DNA of 64,000 nt from Polytrichum commune (Eukaryota; Streptophyta; Polytrichopsida; Polytrichales; Polytrichaceae): assembly GCA_950295325.1 (NCBI GenBank), contig OX485804.1, positions 26,972,001 through 27,036,000 of the forward strand, read 5' to 3'. The first letter of the stretch is position 1; each line of letters starts with the position of its first letter. Positions 6,180 to 44,400 of the stretch are shown in pieces. A model generated the notes under the pieces. The model ran no database searches. It worked only from the letters and a program-made list of their open reading frames with translations, and was not told where the DNA came from. A program made the translations under genes and the position numbers.

Positions 6180-6696
6180 CTCTAACCATTAGAGCCATAT
6201 AATGTGAGAACCTGAAATCTTAGCCTATAGCCCATCTTCAAGTACTAGATTCTAACCTGAAATGAGGCCAACTACACATATATAAAGTGAGCACTTGAAA
6301 TCTCAAAGTAGAGCCGAGGATTCAAAGTGTTAGTTTCTAAGTTGAAATGAGGCCACCTAGGGACCTCCAAAGGAAGGTTTCGGTCCCGAACCCCATATAT
6401 TGGACAGCCACATAATATGAGAACCTGAAATCTAAGCCTAGAGCCCAATTGAAATTCTCCATTTTCTAATTTGAAATGAGGCCAACTACACACATATAAA
6501 GTGAGCATTTGAAATCTCAAAGTAGAGCCGAGGCTTGAAAGTGTTAGTTTCTAAGTTGAAATAAGGACACCTAGGGACCTCCAAATGAAGGTTTCGGTCC
6601 CGAACCCCATATATTGGACAGCCACATAATATGAGAACCTGAAATCTAAGCCTAGAGCCCACCTTCAAATTCTACATTCTAACTTGAAATGAGGCC
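6180..6696. repeat. Second block of the same satellite
   Basis: Two copies of a ~210-bp unit hold the same phrases as the 2.8-4.7 kb block, including GGTTTCGGTCCCGAA near 6380 and 6590. The block runs directly into retrotransposon gag sequence at about 6696, which marks a breakpoint. Confidence 0.8.
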
Positions 6697-8491
6697 ATCC
6701 CGGCGGGATGTACCCATTTGTGGTTTGCAATCCCGCCGGTGGGTTAAAAGTTTGTCTCGCATTACCATGGTCGTAATACAAATTTGGTGGTCTAAGTTCA
6801 TTAGGTGGTCCACCTTGAGGTCTAGCTCCTCTCATATTATCCCTCGCTTGTTGTTGTGGATTGGCCACCGGATATGGCATGCTAATGACTTTATCCGGTT
6901 GACGATATTCATCCGAAGGATGGTTTCCCCCACAATTACTACAACCATAACCTTGTCCATCGGACCAACATTGACCTTGGGCGTGTTATTTCCCACAACC
7001 CGGGTGAAACTCTTTCTTCTCATTGTCTTGACCACCTTGACCTCTAGGAGGGTAAGTTCTATTGTTCCCTTGACCATAGTGAGGTGGTGCTTGACCTCGT
7101 TGATTTTGTAGAGGTGGACCATTGTGTCTTCGTTGATCACGGTTTTATCCAACTCTACAATATTGACGAGTGTGGCCCGGTTGGCCACATTGAACACACC
7201 ATAAACCCGACGAATATCTACCCGACTCAATAGGTGGCGGAGGTCCCGGTTGTTGGCTCTTGATCATCAATGACATTTGATCGGTAAGGCTTTGCATTTG
7301 TTTGATCATGGCCTCTTGGAATCCTAATTGACTAGCATCTAACCGTCGCTCTACTTCCTCAAGGTGAAAATCAACTCTAGGGGCTGGTAGTGCTAGTAGT
7401 GACACTGGTTCTCTAACCGCCAAAGGATGTGAACCCGCATCGGCTATAGCATAAGGAGCTTGACTCTCATACTTGACCGGATCGACCGTAACCACTCTAG
7501 GTCGAATGGGGATGAATTGAGGTATCAATTCATCTTCCCTCCTCCACAAACGCTCATGATCTTTGTCCAAACTTTCTATCTCCCTAGCCGCTCGTTTGGC
7601 ATCCGTTAATGTGCGAGGACTTCTCTAAAAAACACTCCTAATGGTTTCCGATTTAAAAAATTCTTGGATAAAGAATTGTTTTAGTGTGTCGTCGTTGAAC
7701 ATGGTGCCCACGAACCGCGTACACACTAAATCAAATCTTCTAATATAAGCCGAGATCTCTTCCTCCCTACCTTGCTTCAATGAAGCTAACGCTCTCAAGG
7801 CCGTGCTTTGACCAACTTCCGGACGGAACTTGTTTAAGAACTCTCTTTGTAGTTGATCCCAACTTCTAAAATGACCTTCGGCATGATCCCTATACCACTC
7901 ATAGGCCTCGCCCTTTAAAGTGGTGGGAAACCAAACTAACCAATAACCCGGGTTAGTCACGAGGGAGCTAGCCAACCTCTTCATATATCTCTCCATATGC
8001 CTTGAAGGATCCTCATCCTTAGTTCCATAAAACTTAGGAAAGTGGGACGGTATGTCCACCGCTTGTAAGTTTTGTGGAACTACAATGGATAAGCCTCTCG
8101 GCCTAACCAATGGATCAATCGGCGGTATAGGAGGTATGGGTGGCGGATCCATCCCTCGATCCCCATCCATCGTGATCGGTGAACTATCTAACAATCCACT
8201 ATCAACTTCTACCGGAAACTCCTCTCTAGGTGTATAATTTTCCGACGAAGTTTCTCCACTCAACTTGGAGGAAGTGATCTCCTCTTCAAGTTGAGCTCCT
8301 AATTCTAATGTATCTAGAATTAATCTAGTTCTAGGTTCAACATTTAAGCAACTCTCTATTCTAACATCATCTTGTGTTAATCTATCACTAGTTCTAGAGG
8401 ATCGCCTCTTTCGCGTAGATTTTTCTAATCCTACTATCAAACTTGGTTTTTGAGAACGTGTCTTACCTTGCATTCCATAAGCACCGATCAA
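6697..8491 (-). pseudogene. gag: Ty3/gypsy-type retrotransposon gag, truncated and interrupted
   Basis: A start at 8491 opens 288 codons with a retrotransposon gag (capsid) domain: FPKFYGTKDEDPSRHMERY, WFPTTLKGEAYEWYRDH, and LQREFLNKFRP followed by LKQGREEEISAYIRRFD. After a stop at 7625 the same frame continues (7570-7145) to a CCHC zinc knuckle, CVQCGQPGHTRQYC. Further stops follow near 7145 and 7000. The same frame then carries a second, damaged knuckle (CSNCGGNHPSDEY, last Cys replaced) and ends in satellite DNA at 6697. No protease, reverse transcriptase or integrase follows, so the element is cut off at its 3' side. Gag packages element RNA in cytoplasmic particles; this copy cannot make a full protein. 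Confidence 0.85.
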
Positions 8492-11400
8492 CCCTTACTT
8501 GACCCAAGTACAATCCTCACATTTCCCCTCTTAATCTCTCTACTTATCTTGGTGTAAATAAAAAAATTATGGAGGTAAAGACAAAGAACATGCAAGCGAA
8601 CTTAGGTGAACAATCCCAAACAGGGGATAGGCATGTTCATGTCAATTCTTAGTCAAGTCGGAGCATCACCTCCGCACTTTTCTTCGAATAGGCACTCACC
8701 ACAATACCGATAGTGAGGGGGTGACCGTTGCCATACACTACATTGAAAATCAAGGCATCACCCTCAAGTTTCCAACATAATGTGATGGCTAAGGAATTAC
8801 CCTCTACAACGGGTAACGACAATAACAAATACTAAAATCGTTTCTTAATTATTTAGAAGTTTCAATTGGAAGAAAATGACATACCTCAAGCTATCGCTTC
8901 TCCCTGCAAGTTAGCACTCCCCTCGGTTGTGGTTCAACGTGATATCACAATCACTAAATCTAACTAATAATTCTAACCTATAGATTCCAAGCCCCAAGAC
9001 TTGGAGACTCACCCCGGGGTGAGTGTCGAAGTCGAAATTCCTAAATTAATTATCCATCTAAAAATTTAATGAGCTACCGATATTAGGTTCCTTTTGATAT
9101 TTTTATCAAAGCCCCAAGAAGGTGGCGAATGTACCTTCGCCGCGCTCCTTCCTCAAAAATGAAATTGCATAATTGACAATGCAATTCATTCCAAGGAATT
9201 AATTGAAATACAACTACTCTAATAAATTCAATTGAAAAACTCAAGTTAGAATACTTACCGAGCCTTGAGCGCTCCTTCCTCTCCCTCAAGTTTGTGTCTC
9301 CAACTTCCTACTTGCCTCCAAGTCTTCTATTTTCCTAGTCTCCTAGTCGCCTCCAAGCCTTGTAACTACTACCTGCTTCACTCCCAGCATACGCACCATT
9401 TATGTGAGGCCAAATCCACCACCCTTTTGTGAAATCCCCTCACTCTTTTGATCTTGACCTCCTTTCTCTTGCCATTGCAAGAGTCCTCCACATTCTCCAT
9501 TAATAATGCAAGTGAGTTATTTTGACCGATAGGTGCAAGTGTTGAAAAACACTTTTATCAATGGTTAAACACACTCATACAAACCCACGCGTGGTACCAA
9601 CTAGCCCAATGAATCTAACTATTTAGCCACCACTAAAATGGCCTAATGTGATTTAGTTTTTAATGTGCTAACACCCACTAATTGAGCTAGCTTTGCTAAC
9701 CCCTAGATGGCCTAATAATGATTTGTTGCTAAGCCTCGCGGCTGCAATCTAGTCCACGGTCTCGGTGCTGTCTAGCCCACGGTCTCGGTGCAGTCTAGCC
9801 CACCAGCAGCCCAGCTGCAATCTAGCCACGGTCTCGGTGCAGTATAACCCACCAACAGCCCAGCTGCAGTCTAGCCACGGTCTCGGTGCAGTCTAACCCA
9901 CCAGCAGCCCAGCTGCAATCTAGCCACGGTCTCGGTGCAGTCTAACCCACCAGCAACCCAGCTGCAGTCTAGCCACGGTCTCGGTGCAGTCTAACCCACC
10001 AGCAGCTAGCTGCAGTCTAAGTCCAAGGAGTTCCAATACCCGAATGGGTAACCCAGCTACTAGTTGCACCTTAATACAAACCCTCTCATTCACTAATCAA
10101 ATGTTTTCTAAGTTTTTCTTCTTCTTTCCTTTTCCTTGCTCCCAAGTAATGAATTAATCTAACACACTAATTTCACTAACTACTAACTAATCAACACGTG
10201 CAATCTTAAACTCTAAGAGCTCCCTCACTTGGGAGGCATTGAGAGAGAGAGCTTAACTAACTACCTTCACTAAAAACTAATAACCCACCCACGTGGCTCA
10301 AGCTCTTAAGAGCTTGCTCCCTTGAGAGCGCTTGATGGAGAGAGAGGTAAATGAGAGAAAAAACACCTTAAGTAGCAAAGAGGGAGAGAGGGAGAGAGGT
10401 GAGGATAGGGTGAGAAGATTAGCACCTCCAATCACAATCCCTTAACCTTCTCCTTCAAAATAGGGACTAATCCCCATCCACCAAGCTTCCTTCTTCCTAA
10501 ACTAACAAGATGGATCCAAAAGTGGGCATTTAACCCGCGGAGCTCACCTTGCTTCACCTTACCCCCTACTCACATTATTAAGGCATACTCTTATTGAAAT
10601 CAAACCTTGAACTAATCACACAACACCACCTAATGCCTAAAGTTAAATCCACACCACACTTCACTCTTTTTATATTTTGTGAATAATCATCACTCATCAA
10701 AGTCAACAAAAATTGGTTTCGAAGAGTTAATCACCACATGTGGGCACCATTTTGGGCTCACACCCGTTTTCTGATTCTTTTGGAGACACGCATGCAAGGG
10801 AATTATGAGGATGTTTGGAACTCAGTTAAACATGATCGGCATCATCTCAACCTCCTCTTGCGGCGGTGCTATTCTCCAACAGCTCATCATGGTCACTACC
10901 GTAGCACCATAGCTGGCTCGTGCACCTCGAAACGAACATTCGTTTATTTTCTGAATAAGTTTTGTCAACTAAAAATATAATTTATGAAACCTCGTCAGTC
11001 TTGTGATTTAAAAAAATTTAATTTGTTTCTTGAATAAGGTCCAGCAGTACTCAAAGTAGGTTGGTGTTTTTTTCATTCATTCGTGGCGGCTTCTTGGCTT
11101 AAATCCTAAGTATCCACCTTAACCTTACTTAGTGTGGCTCTTGTTTGCCTTTGCAAAATGTATGAGTTAGGTCTTTTGTATTTGCACTTTGGCATGTGTG
11201 AGAAGAGTGTTGGAATTGGCACCAAAACAATGACATGTTGATTTTGCTTTTATTCCTATTAGCAAGGAGGAGAGGGAGATGGATATAGAAAGAGAGTTTG
11301 CAACTTTGAGTGAGCCGGGCGCCGAGTCATTAACGCGTTAGCATGCAACCTCTCATGTTGCGTTGACGTGGTTGGAGCTTAGAAGAGTCCAAAATTTCCA

Positions 11401-13768: not shown

Positions 13769-16700
13769 CTTTCCTCAAAGAATTGCGTTCATTGAATGAT
13801 GATTCCCTTAAAGCCTTAGAGTACATATTTTGGAAAGGAACTCTTCCAAAGCCTCGCAATTACCTATGTACAATTTCTTCAAACAGATTAACCCCCAATC
13901 CTTCCTATAATTTCTTCAAACATATGCATTCACGGATTGATAGTTTGTCCAAAGCCTTTACAATGCATATTCTTGTAGGGAACTCCTTTGGAGCCTCGTA
14001 TTCCCAAATGATCAATTTCTTCAAACCAGTCAACCCCCCCAACCCTTCAAGTATTACATTAAAATCTAATTCCTCCAAAGCCTTAAAAGTGGATACTCTA
14101 GAAGGGAACTCCTCCAAGGCCTCGTAATCCCTCATGTCTAATTCTTTCAAATAATTCAACCCCTCCAACCCTTTCGGTATTTCTATCAAAGATTTGCACC
14201 CTCTGAAAACTTATACCTCCAAAGCCTTAACAGTGCATACTCCAGAAGGCAACTCCTCAAAGACCTCACAATCCCTCATGCCCAATTGCTTCAAACAACT
14301 TAACGCCCCCAACCCTTCTGGTATTTTCCTCAAAGATTTGCATATTTTGAATGATAATTCCTCCAAAGCTTTGAGAGTGCATATTCCGAAAGGGAACTCC
14401 TCCAAGGCCTCGCAATCCCACATCATCAATTTCTTCAAACAAGTCAACCTCCTCAACCCTTCCGGTAATTTCCTCAAAGATTTGCATCCATTGAAATGTA
14501 ATTCCTCCAAAGCCTTGAGAATGCATATTCCGGAAGGGAATTCCTCCAAGGCCTCGCAATCCCGCATCATCAATTTCTTCAACGAAGTCAACCCCCCAAA
14601 CCCTTCCTGTATTTTCCTCAAAGATTTGCATCCATTGAAATGTAATTCCTCCAAAGCCGTGAGAGTGCAAATTCCGGAAGGGAACTCCTCCAAGGCCTCG
14701 CAATCCCACATCATCAATGTCTTCAAACAAGCCAACCCCCCTAACCCTTCCTGTATTTTCCTCAAAGATTTGCATCCATTGAAATGTAATTCCTCCAAAG
14801 CCTTGAGAGTGCCTATTCCGGAAGGGAACTCCTCCAAGGCCTCGCAATCCCACATCCTCAAATTCTTCAAACAAGTCAACCCCCCCAACCCTTCCGGTAT
14901 TTTCCTCAAAGATTTGCATCCATTGAAATGTAATTCCTCCAAAGCCTTGAGAGTGCCTATTCCGGAAGGGAACTCCTCCAAGGCCTCGCAATCCCACATC
15001 CTCAAATTCTTCAAACAAGTCAACCCCCCCAACCCTTCCGGTATTTTCCTCAAAGATTTGCATCCATTGAAATGTCATTCCTTCAAAACCTTGAGAGTGC
15101 ATATTCCGGAAGGAAACTCCTCCAAGGCCTCACAATCTGAGCTGTATAATTTCTTCAAACAAGTCAAAACCCCCAACCCTTCCGGTATTTTCCTCAAAGA
15201 TTTGCATCCATTGAAATGTAATTCCTCCAAAGCATTGAGAGTGCCTATTCCAGAAGGGAACTCCTCCAAGGCCTCGCAATCCCGCATCATCAATTTCTTC
15301 AACCAAGTCAACCCCCCAAACCCTTCCGGTATTTTCCTCAAAGATTTGCATCCATCGAAATCTAATTCCTCCAAAACCTTGAGAGTGCATATTCCGGAAG
15401 GGAACTCCTCCAAGGCCTCGCAATCCCACATCATCAATTTATTTAAACAAGTCAACCCCCCCAACCCTTCCGGTATTTTCCGTAAAGATTTGCATCCTGT
15501 AAATGATAATTCCTCCAAAGCCGTGAGAGTGCAGATTCCGGAAGGGAACTCCTCCAAGGCTTCGCAATCCCACATCATCAATTTCTTTAAGCAAGTCAAC
15601 CCCCCTAACCCTTCCGGTATTTTCCTCAAAGATTTGCATCCATTCAAATGTAATTCCTCCAAAGCCTTGAGAGTGCATATTCCGGAAGGGAACTCCTCCA
15701 AGGCCTTGCAATCCCACATCCTCAAATTCTTCAAACAAGTCAACCCCCCCAACCTTTCCGGTATTTTCCTCAAAGATTTGCATCCATTGAAATGTAATTC
15801 CTCCAAAGCCGTGAGAGTGCATATTCCGGAAGGGAACTCCTCCAAGGCCTCGCAATCCCGCATCATCAATTTCTTCAACCAAGTCAACCCCCAAAACCCT
15901 TCCGGTATTTTCCTCAAAGATTTGCATCCATCGAAATCTAATTCCTCCAAAACCTTGAGAGTGCATATTCCGGAAGGGAACTCCTCCAAGGCCTCGCAAT
16001 CCCACATCATCAATGTCTTCAAACAAGCCAACCCCCCCAATCCTTCCGGTATTTTCCGTAAAGATTTGCATCCTGTAAATGATAATTCCTCCAAAGCCGT
16101 GAGAGTGCAGATTCCGGAAGGGAACTCCTCCAAGGCCTCGCAATCCCACATCATCAATGTCTTCAAACAAGCCAACCCCCCCAATCCTTCCGGTATTTTC
16201 CTCAAAGATTTGCATCCTGTAAATGATAATTCCTCCAAAGCCGTGAGAGTGCAAATTCCGGAAGGGAACTCCTCCAAGGCCTCGCAATCCCACATCATCA
16301 ATTTCTTTAAACAACTCAACCCCCCTAACCCTTCCGGTATTTTCCTCAAAGATTTGCATCCTTTGAAATGTAATTCCTCCAAAGCCTTGAGAGTGCATAT
16401 TCCGGAAGGGAACTCCTCCAAGGCCTCGCAATCCCACATCATCAATTTCTTTAAATAAGTCAACCCCCCTAACTCTTCCGGTATTTTCCTCAAAGATTTG
16501 CATCCATCGAAATCTAATTCCTCCAAAACCTTGAGAGTGCATATTCCGGAAGGGAACTCCTCCAAGGCCTCGCAATCCCACATCATCAATGTCTTCAAAC
16601 AAGCCAACCCCCCCAATCCTTCCGGTATTTTCCTCAAAGATTTGCATCCTGTAAATGATAATTCCTCCAAAGCCGTGAGAGTGCAAATTCCGGAAGGGAA

Positions 16701-19700
16701 CTCCTCCAAGGCCTCGCAATCCCACATCATCAATTTCTTTAAACAAGTCAACCCCCCTAACCCTTCCGGTATTTTCCTCAAAGATTTGCATCCATAGAAA
16801 TGTAATTCCTCCAAAGCCTTGAGAGTGCATATTCCGGAAGGGAACTCCTCCATGGCCTCGCAATCCCACATCATCAATTTATTTAAACAAGTCAACCCCC
16901 CCAACCCTTCCGGTATTTTCCGTAAAGATTTGCATCCTGTAAATGATAATTCCTCCAAAGCCGTGAGAGTGCAGATTCCGGAAGGGAACTCCTCCAAGGC
17001 CTCGCAATCCCACATCATCAATTTCTTTAAGCAAGTCAACCCCCCTAACCCTTCCGGTATTTTCCTCAAAGATTTGCATCCATTCAAATGTAATTCCTCC
17101 AAAGCCTTGAGAGTGCATATTCCGGAAGGGAACTCCTCCAAGGCCTTGCAATCCCACATCCTCAAATTCTTCAAACAAGTCAACCCCCCCAACCTTTCCG
17201 GTATTTTCCTCAAAGATTTGCATCCATTGAAATGTAATTCCTCCAAAGCCGTGAGAGTGCATATTCCGGAAGGGAACTCCTCCAAGGCCTCGCAATCCCG
17301 CATCATCAATTTCTTCAACCAAGTCAACCCCCAAAACCCTTCCGGTATTTTCCTCAAAGATTTGCATCCATCGAAATCTAATTCCTCCAAAACCTTGAGA
17401 GTGCATATTCCGGAAGGGAACTCCTCCAAGGCCTCGCAATCCCACATCATCAATGTCTTCAAACAAGCCAACCCCCCCAATCCTTCCGGTATTTTCCTCA
17501 AAGATTTGCATCCTGTAAATGATAATTCCTCCAAAGCCGTGAGAGTGCAAATTCCGGAAGGGAACTCCTCCAAGGCCTCGCAATCCCACATCATCAATTT
17601 CTTTAAACAACTCAACCCCCCTAACCCTTCCGGTATTTTCCTCAAAGATTTGCATCCTTTGAAATGTAATTCCTCCAAAGCCTTGAGAGTGCATATTCCG
17701 GAAGGGAACTCCTCCAAGGCCTCGCAATCCCACATCATCAATTTCTTTAAACAAGTCAACCCCCCTAACTCTTCCGGTATTTTCCTCAAAGATTTGCATC
17801 CATCGAAATCTAATTCCTCCAAAACCTTGAGAGTGCATATTCCGGAAGGGAACTCCTCCAAGGCCTCGCAATCCCACATCATCAATGTCTTCAAACAAGC
17901 CAACCCCCCCAATCCTTCCGGTATTTTCCTCAAAGATTTGCATCCTGTAAATGATAATTCCTCCAAAGCCGTGAGAGTGCAAATTCCGGAAGGGAACTCC
18001 TCCAAGGCCTCGCAATCCCACATCATCAATTTCTTTAAACAAGTCAACCCCCCTAACCCTTCCGGTATTTTCCTCAAAGATTTGCATCCATAGAAATGTA
18101 ATTCCTCCAAAGCCTTGAGAGTGCATATTCCGGAAGGGAACTCCTCCATGGCCTCGCAATCCCACATCATCAATTTATTTAAACAAGTCAACCCCCCCAA
18201 CCCTTCCGGTATTTTCCGTAAAGATTTGCATCCTGTAAATGATAATTCCTCCAAAGCCGTGAGAGTGCAGATTCCGGAAGGGAACTCCTCCAAGGCTTCG
18301 CAATCCCACATCATCAATTTCTTTACGCAAGTCAACCCCCCTAACCCTTCCGGTATTTTCCTCAAAGATTTGCATCCATTCAAATGTAATTCCTCCAAAG
18401 CCTTGAGAGTGCCTATTCCGGAAGGGAACTCCTCCAAGGCCTCGCAATCCCGCATCATCAATTTCTTTAACCAAGTCAACCCCCCTAACCCTTCCGGTAT
18501 TTTCTTCAAAGATTTGCATCCATTGAAATGTAACTCCTCCAAAGCCTTGAGAGTGCGTATTCCGGAAGGGAACTCCTCCAAGGCCTCGCAATCCCGCATC
18601 ATCAATTTCTTCAACCAAGTCAACCCCCAAAACCCTTCCGGTATTTTCCTCAAAGATTTGCATCCATTGAAATGAAACTCCTCCAAAGCCTTGAGAGTGC
18701 ATATTCCGGAAGGGAACTCCTCCAAGGCCTCGCAATCCCACATCATCAATTTCCTCAAACAAGTCAACCCCCCCAATCTTTCCGGTATTTTCCTCAAAGA
18801 TTTGCATCCTGTAAATGATAATTCCTCCAAAGCCGTGAGAGTGCAAATTCCGGAAGGGAACTCCTCCAAGGCCTCGCAATCCCACATCATCAATTTCTTT
18901 AAACAACTCAACCCCCCTAACCCTTCCGGTATTTTCCTCAAAGATTTGCATCCTTTAAAATGTAATTCCTCCAAAGCCTTGAGAGTGCAGATTCCGGAAG
19001 GGAACTCCTCCAAGGCCTCGCAATCCCACATCATCAATGTCTTCAAACAAGTCAACCCCCCCAACCCTTCCGGTATTTTCCTCAAAGATTTGCATCCATC
19101 GAAATCTAATTCCTCCAAAACCTTGAGAGTGCATATTCCGGAAGGAAACTCCTCCAAGGCCTCGCAATCCCACATCATCAATTTCTTCAAACAAGTCAAC
19201 CCCCCCAATCCTTCCGGTATTTTCCTCAAAGATTTGCATCTTGTAAATGATAATTCCTCCAAAGCCGTGAGAGTGCAGATTCCAGAAGGGAACTCCTCCA
19301 AGGCTTCGCAATCCCACATCATCAATTTCTTCAAAGAAGTCAACCCCCCCAATCCTTCCGGTATTTTCCTCAAAGATTTGCATCTTGTAAATGATAATTC
19401 CTCCAAAGCCGTGAGAGTGCAGATTCCGGAAGGGAACTCCTCCAAGGCCTCGCAATCCCACATCATCAATTTCTTTAAACAAGTCAACCCCCCTAACCCT
19501 TCCGGTATTTTCCTCAAACATTTGCAGCCATCGAAATCTAATTCCTCCAAAACCTTGAGAGTGCATATTCCGGAAGGGAACTCCTCCAAGGCCTCGCAAT
19601 CCCACATCATCAATTTCTTCAAAGAAGTCAACCCCCCCAATCCTTCCGGTATTTTCCTCAAAGATTTGCATCTTGTAAATGATAATTCCTCCAAAGCCGT

Positions 19701-20113
19701 GAGAGTGCAGATTCCGGAAGGGAACTCCTCCAAGGCCTCGCAATCCCACATCATCAATTTCTTTAAACAAGTCAACCCCCCTAACCCGTCCGGTATTTTC
19801 CTCAAAGTTTTGCATCCATTGAAATCTAATTCCTCCAAAGCCTTGAGAGTGCATATTCCGGAAGGGAACTCCTCCAAGGCCTTGCAATCCCACATCCTCA
19901 AATTCTTCAAACAAGTCAACCCCCCCAACCCTTCCGGTATTTTCTTCAAAGATTTGCATCCATTGAAATGTAATTCCTCCAAAGCCTTGAGAGTGCCTAT
20001 TCCGGAAGGGAACTCCTCCAAGGCCTTGCAATCCCGCATCCTCAATTTCTTCAAACAAGTCAACCCCCTAGCCCTTCCGGTATTTTCCTCAAAGATTTGC
20101 ATGCATTGAAATG
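13769..20113 (-). pseudogene. Distal part of the LRR array, cut off from the receptor frame
   Basis: On the minus strand the LRR frame is lost at 20114 by TGA (a GAATTA to GAATGA change relative to the consensus). It is then shifted by loss of one base in the C-run near 20067. From about 20066 the LRR frame is open without a break to a TGA at 15075, which has the same sequence change. It then runs on to stops at 14211 and 13905 and decays. About 35 units lie between the two TGA variants (5,039 bp, which is 35 x 144 minus 1). The long open stretch suggests recent expansion from functional units rather than long decay. It could be 3' untranslated sequence, a reservoir for exchange with the functional part, or a separate allele state. 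Confidence 0.7.
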
Positions 20114-23100
20114 TCATTCCTTCAAAACCTTGAGAGTGCATATTCCGGAAGGAAACTCCTCCAAGGCCTCACAATCTGAGATGTATAATTTCTTCAAACA
20201 AGTCAACCCCCCTAACCCTTCCGGTATTTTCCGTAAAGATTTGCATCCTGTAAATGATAATTCCTCCAAAGCCGTGAGAGTGCAGATTCCGGAAGGGAAC
20301 TCCTCCAAGGCCTCGCAATCCCGCATCATCAATTTCTTCAACCAAGTCAACCCCCAAAACCCTTCCGGTATTTTCCTCAAAGATTTGCATCCATCGAAAT
20401 CTAATTCCTCCAAAACCTTGAGAGTGCATATTCCGGAAGGGAACTCCTCCAAGGCCTCGCAATCCCACATCATCAATTTCTTCAAACAAGTCAACCCCCC
20501 CAACCCTTCCGGTATTTTCCTCAAAGATTTGCATCCATCGAAATCTAATTCCTCCAAAACCTTGAGAGTGCATATTCCGGAAGGGAACTCCTCCATGGCC
20601 TCGCAATCCCACATCATCAATTTCTTCAAACAAGTCAACCCCCCCAATCCTTCCGGTATTTTCCTCAAAGATTTGCATCCTGTAAATGATAATTCCTCCA
20701 AAGCCGTGAGAGTGCAGATTCCGGAAGGGAACTCCTCCAAGGCCTCGCAATCCCACATCTTCAATTTCTTCAAAGAAGTCAACCCCCCCAATCCTTCCGG
20801 TATTTTCCTCAAAGATTTGCATCCTGTAAATGATAATTCCTCCAAAGCCGTGAGAGTGCAGATTCCGGAAGGGAACTCCTCCAAGGCCTCGCAATCCCAC
20901 ATCTTCAATTTCTTTAAACAAGTCAACCCCCCTAACCCTTCCGGTATTTTCCTCAAAGATTTGCATCCATTGAAATGTAATTCCTCCAAAGCCTTGAGAG
21001 TGCCTATTCCGGAAGGGAACTCCTCCAAGGCCTCGCAATCCCGCATCATCAATTTCTTCAACCAAGTCAACCCCCAAAACCCTTCCGGTATTTTCCTCAA
21101 AGATTTGCATCCATCGAAATCTAATTCCTCCAAAACCTTGAGAGTGCATATTCCGGAAGGGAACTCCTCCAAGGCCTCGCAATCCCACATCATCAATTTC
21201 TTTAAACAAGTCAACCCCCCTAACCCTTCCGGTATTTTCCGTAGAGATTTGCATCCTTTGAAATGTAATTCCTCCAAAGCCTTGAGAGTGCATATTGCGG
21301 AAGGAAACTCCTCCAAGGCCTCACAATCTGAGATGTATAATTTCTTCAAACAAGTCAACCCCCCTAACCCTTCCGGTATTTTCCGTAAAGATTTGCATCC
21401 TGTAAATGATAATTCCTCCAAAGCCGTGAGAGTGCAGATTCCGGAAGGGAACTCCTCCAAGGCCTCGCAATCCCGCATCATCAATTTCTTCAACCAAGTC
21501 AACCCCCAAAACCCTTCCGGTATTTTCCTCAAAGATTTGCATCCATCGAAATCTAATTCCTCCAAAACCTTGAGAGTGCATATTCCGGAAGGGAACTCCT
21601 CCAAGGCCTCGCAATCCCACATCATCAATTTCTTCAAACAAGTCAACCCCCCCAACCCTTCCGGTATTTTCCTCAAAGATTTGCATCCATCGAAATCTAA
21701 TTCCTCCAAAACCTTGAGAGTGCATATTCCGGAAGGGAACTCCTCCAAGGCCTCGCAATCCCACATCATCAATTTCTTCAAACAAGTCAACCCCCCCAAT
21801 CCTTCCGGTATTTTCCTCAAAGATTTGCATCCTGTAAATGATAATTCCTCCAAAGCCGTGAGAGTGCAGATTCCGGAAGGGAACTCCTCCAAGGCCTCGC
21901 AATCCCACATCTTCAATTTCTTCAAAGAAGTCAACCCCCCCAATCCTTCCGGTATTTTCCTCAAAGATTTGCATCCTGTAAATGATAATTCCTCCAAAGC
22001 CGTGAGAGTGCAGATTCCGGAAGGGAACTCCTCCAAGGCCTCGCAATCCCACATCTTCAATTTCTTCAAAGAAGTCAACCCCCCCAATCCTTCCGGTATT
22101 TTCCTCAAAGATTTGCATCCTGTAAATGATAATTCCTCCAAAGCCGTGAGAGTGCAGATTCCGGAAGGGAACTCCTCCAAGGCCTCGCAATCCCACATCT
22201 TCAATTTCTTTAAACAAGTCAACCCCCCTAACCCTTCCGGTATTTTCCTCAAAGATTTGCATCCATTGAAATGTAATTCCTCCAAAGCCTTGAGAGTGCC
22301 TATTCCGGAAGGGAACTCCTCCAAGGCCTCGCAATCCCGCATCATCAATTTCTTCAACCAAGTCAACCCCCAAAACCCTTCCGGTATTTTCCTCAAAGAT
22401 TTGCATCCATCGAAATCTAATTCCTCCAAAACCTTGAGAGTGCATATTCCGGAAGGGAACTCCTCCAAGGCCTCGCAATCCCACATCATCAATTTCTTTA
22501 AACAAGTCAACCCCCCTAACCCTTCCGGTATTTTCCGTAGAGATTTGCATCCTTTGAAATGTAATTCCTCCAAAGCCTTGAGAGTGCATATTGCGGAAGG
22601 GAACTCCTCCAAGGCCTCGCAATCCCACATCATCAATTTCTTTAAACAAGTCAACCCCCCTAACCCTTCCGGTATCTTCCTCAAAGATTTGCATCCATTG
22701 AAATGTAATTCCTCCAAGGCCTTGAGAGTGCATATTCCGGAAGGGAACTCCTCCAAGGCCTCGCAATCCCACATCATCAATTTCTTTAAACAACTCAACC
22801 CCCCTAACCCTTCCGGTATTTTCCTCAAAGATTTGCATCCATTGAAATGTAATTCCTCCAAAGCCTTGAGAGTGCATATTCCGGAAGGGAACTCCTCCAA
22901 GGCCTCGCAATCCCACATCATCAATTTCTTTAAACAACTCAACCCCCCTAACCCTTCCGGTATTTTCCTCAAAGATTTGCATCCTTTGAAATGTAATTCC
23001 TCCAAAGCCTTGAGAGTGCATATTCCGGAAGGGAACTCCTCCAAGGCCTCGCAATCCCACATCATCAATTTCTTTAAACAAGTCAACCCCCCTAACCCTT

Positions 23101-23911
23101 CCGGTATTTTCCTCAAAGATTTGCATCCATTGAAATGTAATTCCTCCAAAGCCTTGAGAGTGCATATTCCGGAAGGGAACTCCTCCAAGGCCTCGCAATC
23201 CCACATCATCAATTTATTTAAACAAGTCAGCCCCCCTAACCCTTCCGGTATTTTCCTCAAAGATTTGCATCCATTGAAATGTAATTCCTCCAAAGCCTTG
23301 AGAGTGCCTATTCCGGAAGGGAACTCCTCCAAGGCCTCGCAATCCCACATCATCAATTTATTTAAACAAGTCAACCCCCCCAACCCTTCCGGTATTTTCC
23401 GTAAAGATTTGCATCCTGTAAATGATAATTCCTCCAAAGCCGTGAGAGTGCAGATTCCGGAAGGGAACTCCTCCAAGGCCTCGCAATCCCACATCATCAA
23501 TTTCTTTAAACAAATCAACCCCCCTAACCCTTCCGGTATTTTCCTCAAAGATTTGCATCCATGGAAATGTAATTCCTCCAAAGCCTTGAGAGTGCATATT
23601 CCGGAAGGGAACTCCTCCAAGGCCTCACAATCCCACATGTACAATTTCTTCAAACAAGTCAACCCCCCCAACCCTTCCGGTATTTTCCTCAAAGATTTGC
23701 ATCCTTTGAAATCTAATACCTCCAAAGCCTTGAGAGTGCATATTCCGGAAGGGAACTCCTCCAAGGCCTCACAATCCCACATGTACAATTTCTTCAAACA
23801 AGTCAACCCCCCCAACCCTTCCGGTATTTTCCTCAAAGATTTGCATCCATTGAAATGTAATTCCTGCAAAGCCTTGAGAGTGCATATTCCGGAAGGGAAC
23901 TCCTCCAAGCT
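13780..23911 (-). repeat. ~70-unit tandem array of a 144-bp LRR-pair unit
   Basis: Each 144-bp unit codes 48 residues, two 24-residue plant-type LRRs (SLRKIPEGLGGLTCLKKL and ALEEFPSGICTLKALEEL are the two halves). Unit length is kept exactly, with the one 1-bp loss near 20067 as exception. Higher-order duplication is visible: the marker at 16795 recurs at 18091 (1,296 bp, 9 units), one at 20161 recurs at 21313 (1,152 bp, 8 units), and one at 15421 recurs at 16861 (1,440 bp, 10 units). Because the period is a multiple of three and copies are alike, other frames on both strands also stay open and should not be read as genes. Confidence 0.95.
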
Positions 23912-26900
23912 CGTACAGCTTGAGATGTCCAATTCGAGTAGAGATGTCAAATGGATTAAGTCGTTGGGTAATATTTTCAAATCTTCGCAGTGATTAATGT
24001 GGAGTTCTTCCAATTCTAACTTTCCAAGGCCAACTGGAAATTCCCCTTGTGGGAATATGCACTCTATGAAAGTTACTTCTTTCAAGAATTTAGGTTGGAA
24101 ATTTTGGAATATAGCAGGTGTGCCAATTTTCATTTGAAATAGTTCAAGTACACCCAATGTTTGAAGATGGTCTTCACCAATGTTCATGAATTCGTTGATG
24201 AAATATGTATGTTGCTGTAAAATGTTGTCATATAGAGTTGAGAAATGGATCCTCAACCATTTTAGTGACACAGTTTTGGTAATGATAGCTAAAAGCATGT
24301 CGATATGTTCACAATTCTTAATACTCAGAAATCGTAGGTTTTTCATAGTGCTCACCCCTACATTTGTTTGAATTGCCAAATTATTCCTTTCAAACGTAGT
24401 AAATGAAAGGCCTTCCACAAGTTCTATGCCCTGCAAGTACAACATCACATGCAATTAATTCTCTAGTATAATTATCACCATATTCTAACAAAGTAGCAAA
24501 GAATCTACAATTTCATTTGCATTATGTATCATACCTTGTGATTCCAATGTTCAAGGAATGTTGTCAAAGATAAATTCCAAACTCGAGTCTGTTGAAACTC
24601 TTTTTCAACAATCATGCGTCCCATATCCCGCAATTGATCATGTATATCCAAAATGTCCCTTTTGTCAAATTTTACCAATGATTTGTCTTGTAGACTTTCC
24701 AATGTTTGTTGGGCACTATTGATGTCATCATGAAACTTTCTAAGTAGTGTTGCTTTTGTAAACTTCCAATCACCAATTGAGGAGCCCTTGGAAAAGAAAC
24801 AACATATGTCTAAAAACATACTTTGTTCTTTCTCACCGAGTTCATCAAAGCTAATCCTCAATGTATCCCATATTTTTCCATCTATGCTTCCATCATGTCT
24901 TGCCCTCAACAACCTTTGTAAAGTTCGCTCCCATATTCTCAACCTCCTTTCTCCATACAAATAACTACCCATCACCTCCAAACTCAAAGGAAGCCCATCA
25001 CAAGCCTTTATAATCTTCTCAACTACATGTTCCAAATATGGCAAACATGGTTGGTTGGTCGCAAATGCATGGAGAGAAAATAATTCTTTAGATTGCTCTT
25101 TATCAAGGGTCTCCATATCTACTTTACCAACTATAGGTATGTGTTGTTTCAAAGACTCCCAACTACGGGAAGTAGCAATAAGTTTGCTACCATGAACATC
25201 AAGACATGTGCGATCACCCATTAGTTCTTCCACTTGCCTTGCGTTGCCCACATTGTCCAAAACAATAAGGATTTTTTTGGTCTCTTGCAATTGTTTCAAA
25301 AATGTGTGCCCTTCTTTCAATGTTTTGGTTTGAGGTGGCTCTTTCACATCTTGTAGTTTGTATTTCACGTGAATGGTACAACTTTCACATGTAAAGTCAC
25401 CCACGAAGCATGTCGCACCAAATTTGTGGGAAACATGGTCGGTTAGAGCATTTGCCAAAGTTGATTTGCCAATTCCTCCCATGCCAACAATCCCCAAACT
25501 ACCAATGTCGTGAAGTTGCTTCTCCAATTCCAATATCTTTCCTTCGAGTCCGATCAATTTGGAGATTCGCTTTGTTTCCTTAGTGACCTACATAAAATGC
25601 CAAATGAAAACTTTCATTGCCATCCAACAAACCTCACTAGAAAAATACCACTAAATTCCAAATTTTACCAATAAAGTCACAATGCACAACCTTTTGACCC
25701 CTACTAAAAGTTGACAATGAAGGTTGACCTCATTCAATGCTTACCTGATGAGCTATTTTATTTGATGTTGTGATGTTTGAATTCTCTTGAGCACTTGATG
25801 ACGAAATGGAAATTGCCTCCAAGAAATTTGATATGTAACGTGGCAACCATTGAGCAAAGGTGATAAACATTTGCCACAAAAGAAGAATTGCCCATATATT
25901 GAATGCATGGAGTTTTTGTTTGACCATTGTCCAACATCGCTTTGGATATTCAATACAATTGCTAGGAGTTGTGGATTCGTGCAAAATTTTAGCCACTCTC
26001 ACATCACTAGCAACCTTGAGCATTGCATCACTTTTGACTTTTCTCAACCTCTCAAAGATATCAAGGAATGTGGGCCTATCCAAAGGTTCCGAAGACCAAC
26101 ATTCATGTATCAAGGATTTCAAATCTTTAGAGCAAGTTTTGGGTAACTCCGGTCTCTTGTTTTCCAAAAACCTCACATAGTCACGTAACATCTTTCCCGT
26201 GTAAGCTCTCTCGTTCGAAAGAATCTCGTAGCACATCATGCCAAAACTAAATACATCCGTTTTGAATGCATCCACCTCTGATCTTCGTTTTGTATGAGCT
26301 TCAGGTGCCATATATCCGCAAGTACCAAAACAACCTTCATTTGTAGGCACTTGTGGGGAGTTTTTCACTTCAATCTTTGAAATCCCAAAATCAAGTATCT
26401 TCACATGCACATGTTCCAATGTTGAGCCACCCGTTGAAGTCAATATAACATTATCGGGCTTCAAATCACGATGCGCCACTTTCATGTCATGAAGATAACA
26501 CATTCCACTTGCAATTTGTATCAAAATGTCAACTCTCATGGAATCTGTGAGCATATTAGGTCCTTCCAAAAAACTTGATAAGCTCATAATTCCTCGTTCC
26601 ATGACGATTTCAAATCCTTGACTTTCTCCTCCATGTGCATCACCATCTGTTGAGAAGCCACACCAAAAAAACTTGATGATGTTGGGATGATTCAATCCGC
26701 CCAAAATACTAGCCTCTTTGCGAACGATTGTCTCATGCTCAGGGTTGTCAACTTTGATAACCTTTGTAGCAGTTTCAAATCCTAACCATTGGGTTGAGTA
26801 TACACTCCCATACCCCCCCTTACCCAAAGGCTTAGGTCTCCTCCCATAGTTAGGGGGTTCATAGATATATGGAAAGACAATGCTATCTAATTCACCACCC

Positions 26901-27469
26901 GCAACCTTTTGCAACCCCATTATTCGTTCCATTAAATATCGCAAAAGCATGCAATGATCTTTGCAATTGTCAATTCTACACAAATTCACTTCCATGGATA
27001 GTCGTTCAAATATTGCATTTTGGTCTTGCTCAACGTCATCAATGGATGTTGGGTAGAATGTTGTAGACTTTTCCATATCTCGGATTTCAACTTCACGATT
27101 GGGAAAAGATTGGGAAAATATTTCGCACATTGTGTGGAAACAATACTCAAAGTCCAAGAGAAGTTCTCTGAAAGATTCTTTGTTATTCAATTGCATGACC
27201 ACCACTTGACACCAATCACCGACCTTGCAACATTCTTCAACCATATGCCTTGCTTTCTTCATAATACCAAGCATCACTTGCTCTACTTGGTGGAACACAT
27301 CCATGCCATAGGAACCATCGATCATCCTTTGAATTGTTTTCAGACCATTTTGAATATTCACCAACAAATTCTTGCATTGCCTACTATTCAAAACCTCTGG
27401 ATTCTCCTCTATTTTAGGGAAGTTTGTAACTTCCTCTAGAAAGCCTTGTATGTTTGTCATAATTTGCAT
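20114..27469 (-). CDS. Kinase-NB-ARC-LRR (PNL-class) immune receptor with giant LRR domain
   Basis: Three exons (27469-25745, 25587-24535, 24430-20114) join in phase 0 at CAG|GTAAGC..GTAG|GTC and AAG|GTATGA..GCAG|GGC, giving 2,364 aa. Exon 1 has an N-terminal helical region, then a kinase domain with all key motifs: GKGGYGSVY (216-224), Lys near 236, HRDLKPDN (333-340), DFG (360-362), APE (388-390), and a hydrophobic stretch AFNIWAILLLWQMFITFAQW near its end. Exon 2 is NB-ARC: GMGGIGKST (610-618), ILIVLD (681-686), GLPL (773-776), FLDICCFF, and IHD in place of MHD (890-892). Exon 3 has about 175 residues of irregular LRRs, then ~26 pairs of near-identical LRRs from ~1100 to the TGA at 20114. 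Known NLRs work in the cytosol as nucleotide switches in pathogen sensing. The first exon start is uncertain: an acceptor (TTTCCAG) lies at ~27478, so a short upstream exon is possible. Confidence 0.85.
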
Positions 27470-27700
27470 ATGTTCCTGGAAAATCATACACAAAACATCA
27501 CAATCAACATAATTATGTGATATACCAATATGCAAAACACAAAACCTTAGGGAAGTTTGTAACTTCCTCTAGTAAGCCTTGTATATTTGTCATTTTCATA
27601 AAGGAATCGCTCTTTGTCCGTCTTCCATCAAATCATACTTTGCATATATTTCTACTAAATCATACACAAAACATCACAAATCAATAAAATATTTAATATT
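27417..27700 (-). repeat. Duplicated start of the receptor kinase exon
   Basis: The stretch 27417-27540, which codes MTNIQGFLEEVTNFPK plus upstream intron-like sequence, is repeated with changes at 27549-27700. The second copy reads MKMTNIQGLLEEVTNFPK and is followed by a possible donor, AAG|GTTTTG. It may be the true first exon, or a by-product of local duplication. Confidence 0.65.
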
Positions 27701-40837: not shown

Positions 40838-41468
40838 ACTTTTTAATTTTTTTTCTTCCCAACATCATAGATTTCAAGACAGGTTGCAGGGCGAATTCCA
40901 AAAACATATTCCATGATAGATTCCAAGACAGATCCCAAGACAGACAAACACCACCAAATGATTCTCGTAAATTGATAGAGTTTGAGATATTATATTAAAC
41001 CAAATCCTCCCCTCTTTTTCCGCCAACAAAATATGCGATGGTCCTGCAACATGGTCCATTCTCACTTCACACTATCCTTAGGGCCTGTGACTACATAAAA
41101 CGACTTTCCCAACACCCATGGTACGGCCTTTGGATGAGAGTCAAGGGTCCTCACCATTACAAGGTCATGGCTCTTGGCTCATGTGTGAAGTGGCCCTTAA
41201 CTTAGTGCACTTTAATATTTGGAGACCAGTTGACACCTCTTTGCCATACCCGCGTGTTAACCAGGTTGGTATCTTCGTTACAACCCTATTCACACTTGTG
41301 CCCTCTACGTTCCTTGCCAAGGTCTTCTTCGCCGCTTGGAGGCCTCCGCAACAACACTTGCAGTCAGTCGACGATCGATGCGGAAAGAGATTTTGTTGAG
41401 AGATTGGCCATGACCCCGCCATCGCCAATTGTGGCAGGCGATCGGGGAGGAGGGTTTCGATAGCCGTG

Positions 41469-44400
41469 ATGGAGGCTGAGTGCGTTGTCTGTTTGCAGCA
41501 GTACGATGACGGAGAGCACACGCCTCGCGTTCTCTCATGCGGCCATTCGCTCTGCCAGAGCTGCACAGTGGAGCTTCCGGCCCAATGGGGTGGGATGAAA
41601 AATAGTCATGGTGATGGTGGCAGGAATAATAATTCTGGTCATGGTGGTGGTCTGGTTCGGTGCCCTGAGTGTAATCAGTTCACGAAATTGCCCCTGGGAG
41701 GTCACCTTGAGCTTCCCAAGAACTTTGAGCTCATGCGGTTGATTCAAAACAGACCGAGAACAACAGCACCTGCCCTCAATGACGATGATGGTTCTTTCCA
41801 GGCGAAAGGAAAAGATAGTGGTGTGCAAATTATGAGGTTTAAGGGAAAGGATGTGAAAGTAGCAGCAGTAATCGGGAGTGGAGTTGAGGGCTATGGAGAG
41901 GTTGTGCTTCGGATTCTCCCGCAGGAAGCTATCAAGCCGAGGCGGGGGCGTGTTGGTGGTTTTATCATTGGAGATATGTTGTCCTTGGACCGAAAATTGC
42001 ATCCAATGTTGCAAGAGGTCGTCAGTTTACAGGCGTTACAGATTGTGGAGGAGATTTGGAGTGTGAATAAAGAATATGAAGAGGTTGTGAAACTGGCTTG
42101 GAAGAGTGTGCCAATTGTGGTTCGGGCTGAATTAGTGCAATTGCTGTCAATTGCTGATCGTTGTTCTGCGCATGTTGCTAAGGTGCTTGGCTGGTGGATG
42201 TCCAAAGATGGTGGTCTTTTTCTAGTTTCTAGGGTTTGTGTGGAAGGAATCAAGCAGGCAAGATGTCTACTGCCTATTACCGATGAATTCGCACTCGATC
42301 TGGAACAAGAAGATGGGAGGAGCTCCTCTGAAGCTCCGAAAGAGGACACAAGTTTGGGCAGGAATTCTCTAGGAACCTTAGTGAGGTTAGGTGTGGAGCT
42401 TTGTGAAATTCTTCTGGAATTTAATGCTGCTGGGCTCATTTTGTTCGCGCTTGCTCCAGATTGTCTAATATTAGATAACCTCGGTCATCTTCAGCTTCAC
42501 ATCGGCAAAATTTCCTTCTGGAAAGACAAAGTGCGTCACGAAGTGAAAGATCCAGATTTGAAAGACCCTCTTGTTGATCTCAACCTACCTGGTAGGCCGA
42601 ATGTCAGCGAACTATTACAGGGTTCATGTAGAGGAGAGGGTGTTTTAAAAACTGAATATGTGAGCCCTGAAGTGCTTGACCACTTCAAGGGGCATCAAAG
42701 GACAAACCAAACAGCAGAAAATTCATCTCAAAAAACATGCTCTCATTCAACAATTGCCGATGAGCATGAGGGCGAGCATGTGGTATTGACTCAGAAGGCG
42801 GATGTATGGTCGTTGGGATGTCTATTGCTACGGATATTCTCAGGAAGTGCGTTACTTGGAGGTCTACCGTTTTCCAAAGTGTTGAGTATGATTGTGCATA
42901 AAAAGATCACACAGGAAGCTTTTGGGGATGATGAGTTGCCAGTTCTTGGCCATTATGCTCCTGTATTAAAGCTTATATTGAACTGCTTTGCGCAGTCGCC
43001 AAGTGAGAGGCCTCAAGTGGGCGATATATGGTGGGCACTCAAGGAGCTCATTGACGATCAGGCACTGGGCTCCCCATCTCTTTGGAATGAAGCTGTTGGC
43101 GAAGGTTTCAAACAAATGGAATTTGAAGAAAGTGGCAATAGTATTTTAGGAACTGAAATTCCAGAGGTGGATTCTACAGATATTTCACGAGTATTGATTT
43201 GTAACAATCCCTGCATCACAGTATTAAAGACTCTCCATGGCCATCGCGATACAGTGTCATCCTTAGCTGTTTGTGGTAAGACTCCTTGTTTTGATTTTTC
43301 TGCTGATTGTTTGGAAAGAGTTTTACTTCAATTCCAGCTGTTGGAATTTACTTAAAGCTGTCCTAATGAAACTCTGGCTGATAGAGGTTCCTTTGTTTGT
43401 CATGAATACAGGAACATGAACAATAACGCCCTTCTCATTATGTAATGCTGTGTTTTGGTAAATATGCAGGAAACTACTTGATAAGTGCTTCTTTTGACAA
43501 GACTCTGCGTGTCTGGTCCCTCAGAGTAAAATTCTTCTTATCGTACCACCTCTTTCCCATCTTGGACTTCATGTCTTTGCTCTGTGTGCATCTAATTCCG
43601 TGAAGTCCTTCCTCTGTTATCTTCATGTCTTCATTCAACCCTATGTTTCAAGGGTTTAGGATGTAGGGCTTTTGGTACACATCAAGGGTTCTGTTCTTGG
43701 CTGTGATTCAAGCTTAGGCTCAAAGGCTAAGACTAAGGCTAAGAAGTAGTCCAAGATAGCCAAGAAGTTTCCACTCTCAAGAATTGCTTCTTCTGAAAAG
43801 AGTATTGTAGTAGGGAGTGGCTTAAAGAACAACACCATTCTTCTACTCAGACAAACTAGTGTTTCGGCAAAGCCAGATTTTTGTCTGTCTCAATTTCTCT
43901 CATATCATGCTTGGCTTAACAGGATAACAGACCAGTTCAGGTATTGGAAGGTCATGGACAAAGGATTACTGCACTTGCTGTTCATGAATCAACCGAACTA
44001 TGTGCTAGTGGTGACTATGGAGGACAGATCTGCTTGTGGAACTTAGCCACTGGAGTTTCCTCAGCACCTATGGCCACCTGGCAGGAGCACCAGGATTGGC
44101 GATACTCAGGGGTTGCTTCTCTCGTCTTCTCCAATGATGGAGTTCTGTACAGTGGAAGTGGTGACAGGACTGTCAAAGCCTGGCATATGACGGTAACCCA
44201 TAGTTTCTTCCTCTCAAGTTGCTAATTCTGAAGTCCGTGCTTCTGTCAAATGGATTTGAAACTAATAGCTTCATAGATTTCTGGTTGCATCATTTTGTGT
44301 TAAGGTTACTGCCAGAAGACCAATTCACGTTCTCCTTCCTGGAGTCCAGCAATTTTATCTCAGTTAGTTTCTCCCTCTCAAGTTGCTAAACCCAAGTTGG

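Follow-up and report, generated by a model that had tools for sequence, protein, structure and literature searches.

A moss kinase-NB-ARC-LRR gene with a homogeneous tandem LRR array and an N-terminal domain resembling that of plant MLKL

Domain architecture of the gene

The window analysed here is a 64-kb stretch of the Polytrichum commune genome (C2:26972001-27036000; the genome searched comprises 408 Mb in 64 contigs), and its minus strand carries a predicted gene for a nucleotide-binding leucine-rich repeat (NLR) protein that ends in a tandem array of leucine-rich repeats (LRRs). Three open frames, encoding a protein kinase, an NB-ARC domain and LRRs, were confirmed on that strand where a first-pass annotation, made from the letters alone, had placed them. 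When 27469-25745, 25587-24535 and 24430-20114 are joined, they yield 2,364 codons with a single, terminal stop. The product predicted from the sequence is ~2,361 amino acids (aa) long, starting at 27460 or 27469 and stopping at 20114.

Exon 1 (25745-27460) encodes, as judged by Pfam kinase matches and paralog alignment, a DUF1221/HeLo-like helical domain, a protein kinase and then a hydrophobic stretch. The first of these (26881-27460) was related to DUF1221, the HeLo domain of plant MLKL, by the profile and BLASTP comparisons given below. The kinase domain (26045-26833) matches PF00069 (E 1.6e-40) and PF07714 (3.9e-41) and contains the G.G..G.V, ATK, HRDLKPDN, DFG and APE motifs, all of which are retained in 17 of 17 aligned sequences. 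Exon 2 (24535-25587) encodes the NB-ARC domain (PF00931, E 2.4e-24), with a GMGGIGKST P-loop, LIVLDN and GLPL in its translation, followed by a Roq1-type winged helix (PF23282); by sequence comparison, Roq1 is the closest solved relative of this exon. Exon 3 (20114-24430; PF23598, E 8e-149) consists of an LRR leader (24430-23849), 25 complete 48-aa LRR pairs, most of a 26th, and the stop codon TGA at 20114.

Both introns (25588-25744 and 24431-24534) are GT-AG introns of phase 0 by the sequence and the paralogs, and both exon joins fall at codon boundaries. The intron 1 donor is GTAAG in 16 of 17 aligned sequences and GTAAA in the remaining one (L022), and its acceptor reads TG(T/C)AG|GTC before exon 2 in all 17. 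For intron 2, the donor AAG|GTA is found in 17 of 17 sequences and the acceptor TGCAG before exon 3 in 27 of 27. The first-pass annotation had described a kinase with a full set of catalytic motifs, an NB-ARC domain and splice phases that keep the frame, combined in a kinase-NB-ARC-LRR (PNL) architecture; profile searches with models of all three domains, together with the phase-0 introns, bear out this description. On its sequence, the gene fits the PNL class of NLR immune receptors.

The start had been placed at ATG 27469. At ATG 27460, the first conserved Met position, MTN or MAN is found in 3 of 8 distant paralogs and Met in 15 of 17 close sequences, so that 27460 is the likelier start and 27469 a possible alternative. 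An acceptor-like TTTTCCAG stands immediately upstream of the exon 1 start, and an additional 5' exon is therefore possible. Just upstream of the real start, at 27546-27593 on the minus strand, lies a partial tandem copy of the exon 1 start (ATGACAAATATACAAGG...).

The 144-bp tandem array

The array occupies 14057-23909 on the minus strand (Tandem Repeats Finder: period 144, 68.4 copies, score 16,115). Walking along it, we counted 68 units, or 69 with the poorer last one, with a mean identity to the consensus of 0.938. Each unit encodes a pair of 24-aa LRRs, 48 aa in all. The first 25 units (0-24) are full-length and keep the frame, and unit 25 lacks only its last four residues, which gives ~52 in-frame LRRs, plus ~2 within the leader. 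Thus, the ~26 pairs and at least 52 LRRs of the first-pass annotation hold, save for the incomplete last pair, and its figure of ~70 pairs is close to the number of units in the DNA, those from unit 26 onward lying past the stop and outside the frame of the gene. The units had also been called near-identical; on average they are only ~90% alike.

The stop at 20114 arose from a TTA to TGA change in unit 25, and the same nonsense codon recurs in unit 60, 35 units on. As the two units that carry it differ at 6 of 144 bases, a random error of base calling is an unlikely source. Unit 26 carries a 1-bp deletion within a G run, which puts the units from there onward out of the gene's frame, and the array shows one 1-bp register change before its ragged end. 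The downstream part at 15075-19961 (minus strand, units 27-60) is open in another frame, unjoined to that of the gene, and ends at the second nonsense codon; units 27-59 are open in one frame, as part of a frame of 1,697 codons. The longest exact internal repeat found in the array is 673 bp, and 53 of the 69 units are distinct. Antisense to the array, the plus strand has long open frames at 14155-16458, 16798-18093 and 19974-23993 (up to 1,339 codons), probably a by-product of a period divisible by three.

Close paralogs and array turnover

A search of the genome with the NB-ARC exon gave at least 116 matches (115 of 460 candidates were scored), and 27 loci, the window included, were found at 81% identity or more among the matches listed. 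Kinase-exon matches at 79% identity or more likewise number 27, each covering at least 517 of 585 residues; 25 of these exons are free of stops, and in one of the other two (L007) the stop lies upstream of the inferred start. More distant NB-ARC relatives, e.g. at C6:9325517 (64%), adjoin LRR matches at 79-80%.

We surveyed the 8 kb behind the NB-ARC exon at the 26 other loci, a span that the longest arrays exceed. The 144-bp array is present at all 26, with 4 to at least 50 units. Units below 75% identity being omitted from these and the pooled counts below, the in-frame pairs number 27 in L031, 25 in the window gene, 24 each in L007, L029 and L030, and 1 at the lowest; 13 of the 27 genes have at least 17 in-frame pairs and 14 have at most 13. 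In L013 a +1 shift at unit 19 leaves 19 pairs in frame, though the stop-to-stop frame spans 41 units.

Genes with the same or nearly the same LRR leader carry different arrays. L016 and L018 show no difference over the 684-bp leader and have 11 and at least 50 units, respectively; L018 and L021 differ at 1 of 684 leader bases and have at least 50 and 20 units; L010 and L011 have a 672-bp leader and the first 11 units in common and then diverge. Hence the arrays evolve in length and content far more rapidly than their flanks. Gene conversion of the leader would yield the same picture, and would itself be an exchange inside the gene. The window array shares 0, 0 and 2 of its 69 units at 98.6% with the three paralogs compared, so that recent exchange involving it is not seen among these three. 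In L019 and L024 a stretch of ~1.5 kb, possibly an insertion, interrupts the array at a comparable point, behind 12 units in the first and 13 in the second.

The ratio of replacement to silent differences per site (pN/pS) was calculated for 11 of the 13 genes with at least 17 pairs (L011 and L029 were left out) and was 0.57 (0.47-0.70) in exon 1 and 0.49 (0.38-0.64) in exon 2. In six paralogs whose frame breaks early, the values were 0.59 (0.45-0.79) and 0.92 (0.62-1.51). We considered relaxed NB-ARC constraint in the early-broken paralogs and did not retain it, the value in five related long-array genes being 0.55 (0.35-0.86), with overlapping intervals and exon 1 alike in both groups.

Variation among units concentrates at predicted exposed residues

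We pooled 345 coding units and compared them by codon entropy, permutation tests and spanning-tree counts, the last of which avoid scoring one change repeatedly. The codons of highest entropy in the pool are 47, 45 and 21, then 6, 23, 43 and 19. Four of these (21, 23, 45 and 47) encode outward-facing x residues in the two LxLx strands, which codon 6 does not. The six codons treated as exposed follow the published LxxLxLxx motif, the set having been fixed after the entropy table was known. An AlphaFold2 (AF2) model of the leader and 14 units places strands at unit positions 19-23 and 43-47, with a mean predicted local distance difference test (pLDDT) score of 71 and ten-residue blocks inside the array at 63-89. 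Among the 50 matches listed, a fold search with this model returned only other LRR-type or axonemal chains, none labelled NLR.

In the window gene, mean entropy was 0.96 at the six exposed codons and 0.06 at scaffold codons (permutation p 0.00065); the corresponding values were 1.59 and 0.22 in L031 (p 0.0001) and 1.94 and 0.20 in the pool (p 0.00005). Related to unit-wide pS, pN in the 25 complete coding units of the window gene was 1.76 at exposed codons and 0.21 elsewhere. All 13 genes tested, which are those with at least 17 in-frame pairs among the 27, behaved alike, with 1.02-2.93 at exposed codons and 0.13-0.32 at the others. Overall, replacement differences between units are concentrated 6- to 8-fold at the predicted outward-facing residues of the beta-sheet. 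On the spanning tree of the window units, 12.2 replacement changes fall on the 6 exposed codons and 14 on the other 42 (0.80 and 0.14 per site, respectively), and the concentration recurs in all six sets so tested, most weakly in the downstream units (0.67 versus 0.28).

Positive selection at the exposed codons is only suggested by these values. The safe statement is that the scaffold appears to be under strong constraint and the exposed positions under none, or under diversifying selection. The 33 downstream units 27-59 keep the exposed-site excess (pN exposed/pS 1.46), and at non-exposed codons they show 28 replacement and 13 silent changes, compared with 14 and 14 in the 25 coding units. 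Either a recently lost constraint or an exchange of units with the coding part would fit this pattern.

A second NLR group with homogeneous LRR arrays

A genome search for NB-ARC (126 of 466 candidates scored) showed a second group of such genes. One NLR, at C4:11944484, is contained in a frame of 2,924 aa, and the 6 kb that follow (L059, C4:11945159-11951158) are open throughout and contain a 72-bp array of 73.4 copies that is still running at their end. We counted 72 full 24-aa LRR units, 29 of them distinct. With exposed codons fixed in the script that computed the table, though with the translation already known, the 3 exposed codons receive 12 replacement changes and no silent one, the other 21 codons 12.5 and 4.5. 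There is very little synonymous variation between these units.

Relatives of this array lie in frames of up to 3,674 aa (C6:37268448), stop-to-stop lengths that are possibly inflated as in L013, the base-by-base check covering the sampled part of L059. For some of them an NB-ARC domain lies in a frame of matching length and place, e.g. of 2,086 aa at C6:621786; none is listed for the 3,674-aa frame. Since a second NLR group carries one, such homogeneous LRR arrays recur in this genome and are no peculiarity of the window gene. The window array had initially been taken for one of the longest imaginable, exceptional in size and uniformity; the 27 in-frame pairs of L031, the 2,924-aa frame on C4, the arrays at all 26 close paralogs and those of the second group speak otherwise.

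The N-terminal domain resembles that of plant MLKL

The ~200 residues ahead of the kinase in the window protein match no Pfam family over the cut-off. A profile of this domain from 11 diverse sequences found its best PDB match in 6lba (E 0.014, the next being at 0.22), which we take to be AtMLKL2. With the start of the kinase included, 6lba came second (6.8e-07), and the matched part of 6lba is DUF1221 (2.6e-55). In the excerpt of PMC8559963 at hand, PF06760/DUF1221 is the HeLo domain of plant MLKL proteins.

Within the P. commune genome, a search for DUF1221 gave 15 matches, of which only that in a DUF1221-kinase gene (L057) was over the cut-off. Exon 1 of the window gene aligns with this gene over nearly its whole length (BLASTP 7e-33), and hhalign of the N-terminal domain against a two-sequence DUF1221 alignment gave 96%. 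Three of the 15 matches, all weak (E 0.11-0.47), precede NB-ARC exons of their own strand by 1.4 to 1.7 kb. By these comparisons, homology of the N-terminal domain to DUF1221/HeLo is detectable; the P portion of these PNLs probably corresponds to an MLKL-like protein, so that one polypeptide may combine the sensor with its executioner.

Other features of the window

Besides the NLR gene, the window contains a 651-aa frame at 41400-43355 on the plus strand, that combines a zinc finger of RING type with a C-terminal kinase-like part scoring below the Pfam cut-off. On the minus strand lie two frames with class I (Glu/Gln) tRNA synthetase domains (49329-51240), a COBRA-like protein frame (59590-60120) and a retrotransposon gag-like frame (7625-8494). 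Tandem Repeats Finder also reported satellite-like arrays of 85- and 214-bp repeats at 2819-4599 and 6193-6697.

A proposed receptor whose recognition surface evolves by unit turnover

The explanation that we prefer, with a probability of about 0.72, is that the window gene encodes a PNL-class NLR in which the LRR array would be the recognition surface, evolving by unit turnover, and the HeLo-kinase part the executioner. The surface would change by gain, loss and exchange of whole units, through unequal crossing over or gene conversion. A pathogen or a guarded host protein would bind along the concave LRR face and the NB-ARC would then switch; oligomerisation would gather the HeLo-kinase modules, and these would act as in plant MLKL, through membrane action and/or phosphorylation. 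Homology supports the HeLo-like domain, the kinase and the NB-ARC switch as such.

Several observations weigh against this explanation. When replacement and silent differences are compared at the same codon, pN/pS in the pooled units is 0.84 at codon 21, 0.44 at codon 23, 0.97 at codon 45 and 1.29 at codon 47; some exposed codons are rich in silent change too, and the units are not independent of each other. Non-exposed codons (6 in the pool; 16, 39 and 40 in the window) rank level with or above exposed codon 23, and in L059 positions 2, 5, 12 and 13 vary as well. As to the N-terminal domain, DUF1221 is absent from the Pfam matches of the window protein at E up to 1, no HeLo model matched, and the best weak match is to an unrelated family (HOCHOB, 0.007). 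Searched member by member, 11 sequences gave DUF1221 in one (0.031) and MLKL_N in two (0.039), beside unrelated weak matches. As for the four-helix bundle of plant MLKL, a single-sequence AF2 model of exon 1 is helical at the N-terminus, but its mean pLDDT of 38.6 makes it unusable. Finally, the frame reaches the end of the array only in L031 and is broken inside it in the other 26 of 27 genes; with 14 of the 27 also keeping at most 13 pairs, many genes of the family may be non-functional.

The last point leads to the view that the window copy is itself a decaying or dead paralog, in which neutral minisatellite expansion within the LRR exon broke the frame and homogeneity reflects recent slippage and not selection for recognition. 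The nonsense codon in unit 25, copied in unit 60, and the deletion in unit 26 would agree with this, as would the NB-ARC pN/pS of 0.92 in the early-broken paralogs. Slippage alone, however, does not produce the contrast between exposed codons and the rest that is seen in the 25 coding units, exon 1 has pN/pS values of 0.57 and 0.59 in the long-array genes and the early-broken six, exon 2 has 0.49 in the former, and the catalytic motifs persist throughout the aligned sequences. We therefore consider decay unlikely, yet the most serious of the alternatives. Far less probable is a receptor of at least 60 pairs, to which splicing, readthrough or frameshifting would join the out-of-frame units: units 27-59 are indeed open and have kept their exposed-site variation, but stops and frameshifts differ in place between paralogs, which suggests no shared recoding or intron signal, and the balance of changes at non-exposed codons downstream may point to relaxed constraint. 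That the array is an assembly artefact, a possibility named in the first-pass annotation, is hardly credible. Tandem repeats are prone to mis-assembly, but the longest exact repeat of 673 bp, the 53 distinct units, the arrays of differing length and content at every close paralog and the concentration of unit differences at exposed codons all argue for a real array.

If the receptor explanation is taken together with the second group and the turnover between paralogs, a wider one can be put forward, tentatively and with considerable doubt. Dozens of NLRs in at least two groups would form a modular receptor system built on coding minisatellites, each LRR module presenting a small number of variable contact residues on a scaffold that stays fixed; modules would be duplicated, deleted and exchanged between paralogs, out-of-frame units would be a silent reserve, and in the PNLs the sensor would be fused to an MLKL-like executioner. 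Were this true, binding surfaces would be assembled from parts, which touches the long-standing question of how plants without adaptive immunity generate new recognition surfaces. The arrays offer a test case for modular receptor evolution, as scaffold positions are clearly distinct from contact positions, the units can be counted and recent paralogs whose leaders are identical have different arrays; unit gain, loss and exchange are directly measurable in them between individuals.

Comparison with known systems

The PNL (PK-NBS-LRR) class of moss NLRs was described from Physcomitrella patens (PMC3352924). The window gene has the same N-terminal kinase, middle NB-ARC and C-terminal LRR and the same phase-0 introns between them, as predicted from its sequence; the part of that description at hand mentions neither a homogeneous tandem LRR array nor HeLo/DUF1221. 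The architecture is also that of the Pkn-NLRs of Chia et al. 2024 (PMC11218826), who saw a modest and variable response to a P. patens kinase in Nicotiana benthamiana; in the available portion of that paper, Pkn and MLKL are kept as separate categories and no such array is mentioned. The titles and abstract openings of the literature searched describe no such array and no HeLo-PNL link, which does not imply their absence from print.

Plant MLKL resembles the window protein in that exon 1 aligns nearly throughout with a DUF1221-kinase gene of the same genome; unlike it, the window protein is fused to NB-ARC and LRR domains and its own N-terminus matches no Pfam HeLo model. In Arabidopsis highly variable NLRs (hvNLRs), variation is likewise concentrated on exposed concave LRR residues, as far as the excerpt of PMC8226289 goes, but there it is measured between alleles, whereas in the window gene the comparison is among the tandem units of a single gene, whose scaffold is strongly conserved. 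Set beside these systems, what is new here is that replacement variation between the tandem units of a single gene concentrates at predicted exposed LRR residues, that array length differs between genes whose LRR leaders are identical, and that the exon with the kinase is similar to plant MLKL (DUF1221/HeLo plus kinase). The last of these suggests a hypothesis for what the kinase portion does in moss PNLs, namely that it may act as a cell-death module of MLKL type joined to its sensor.

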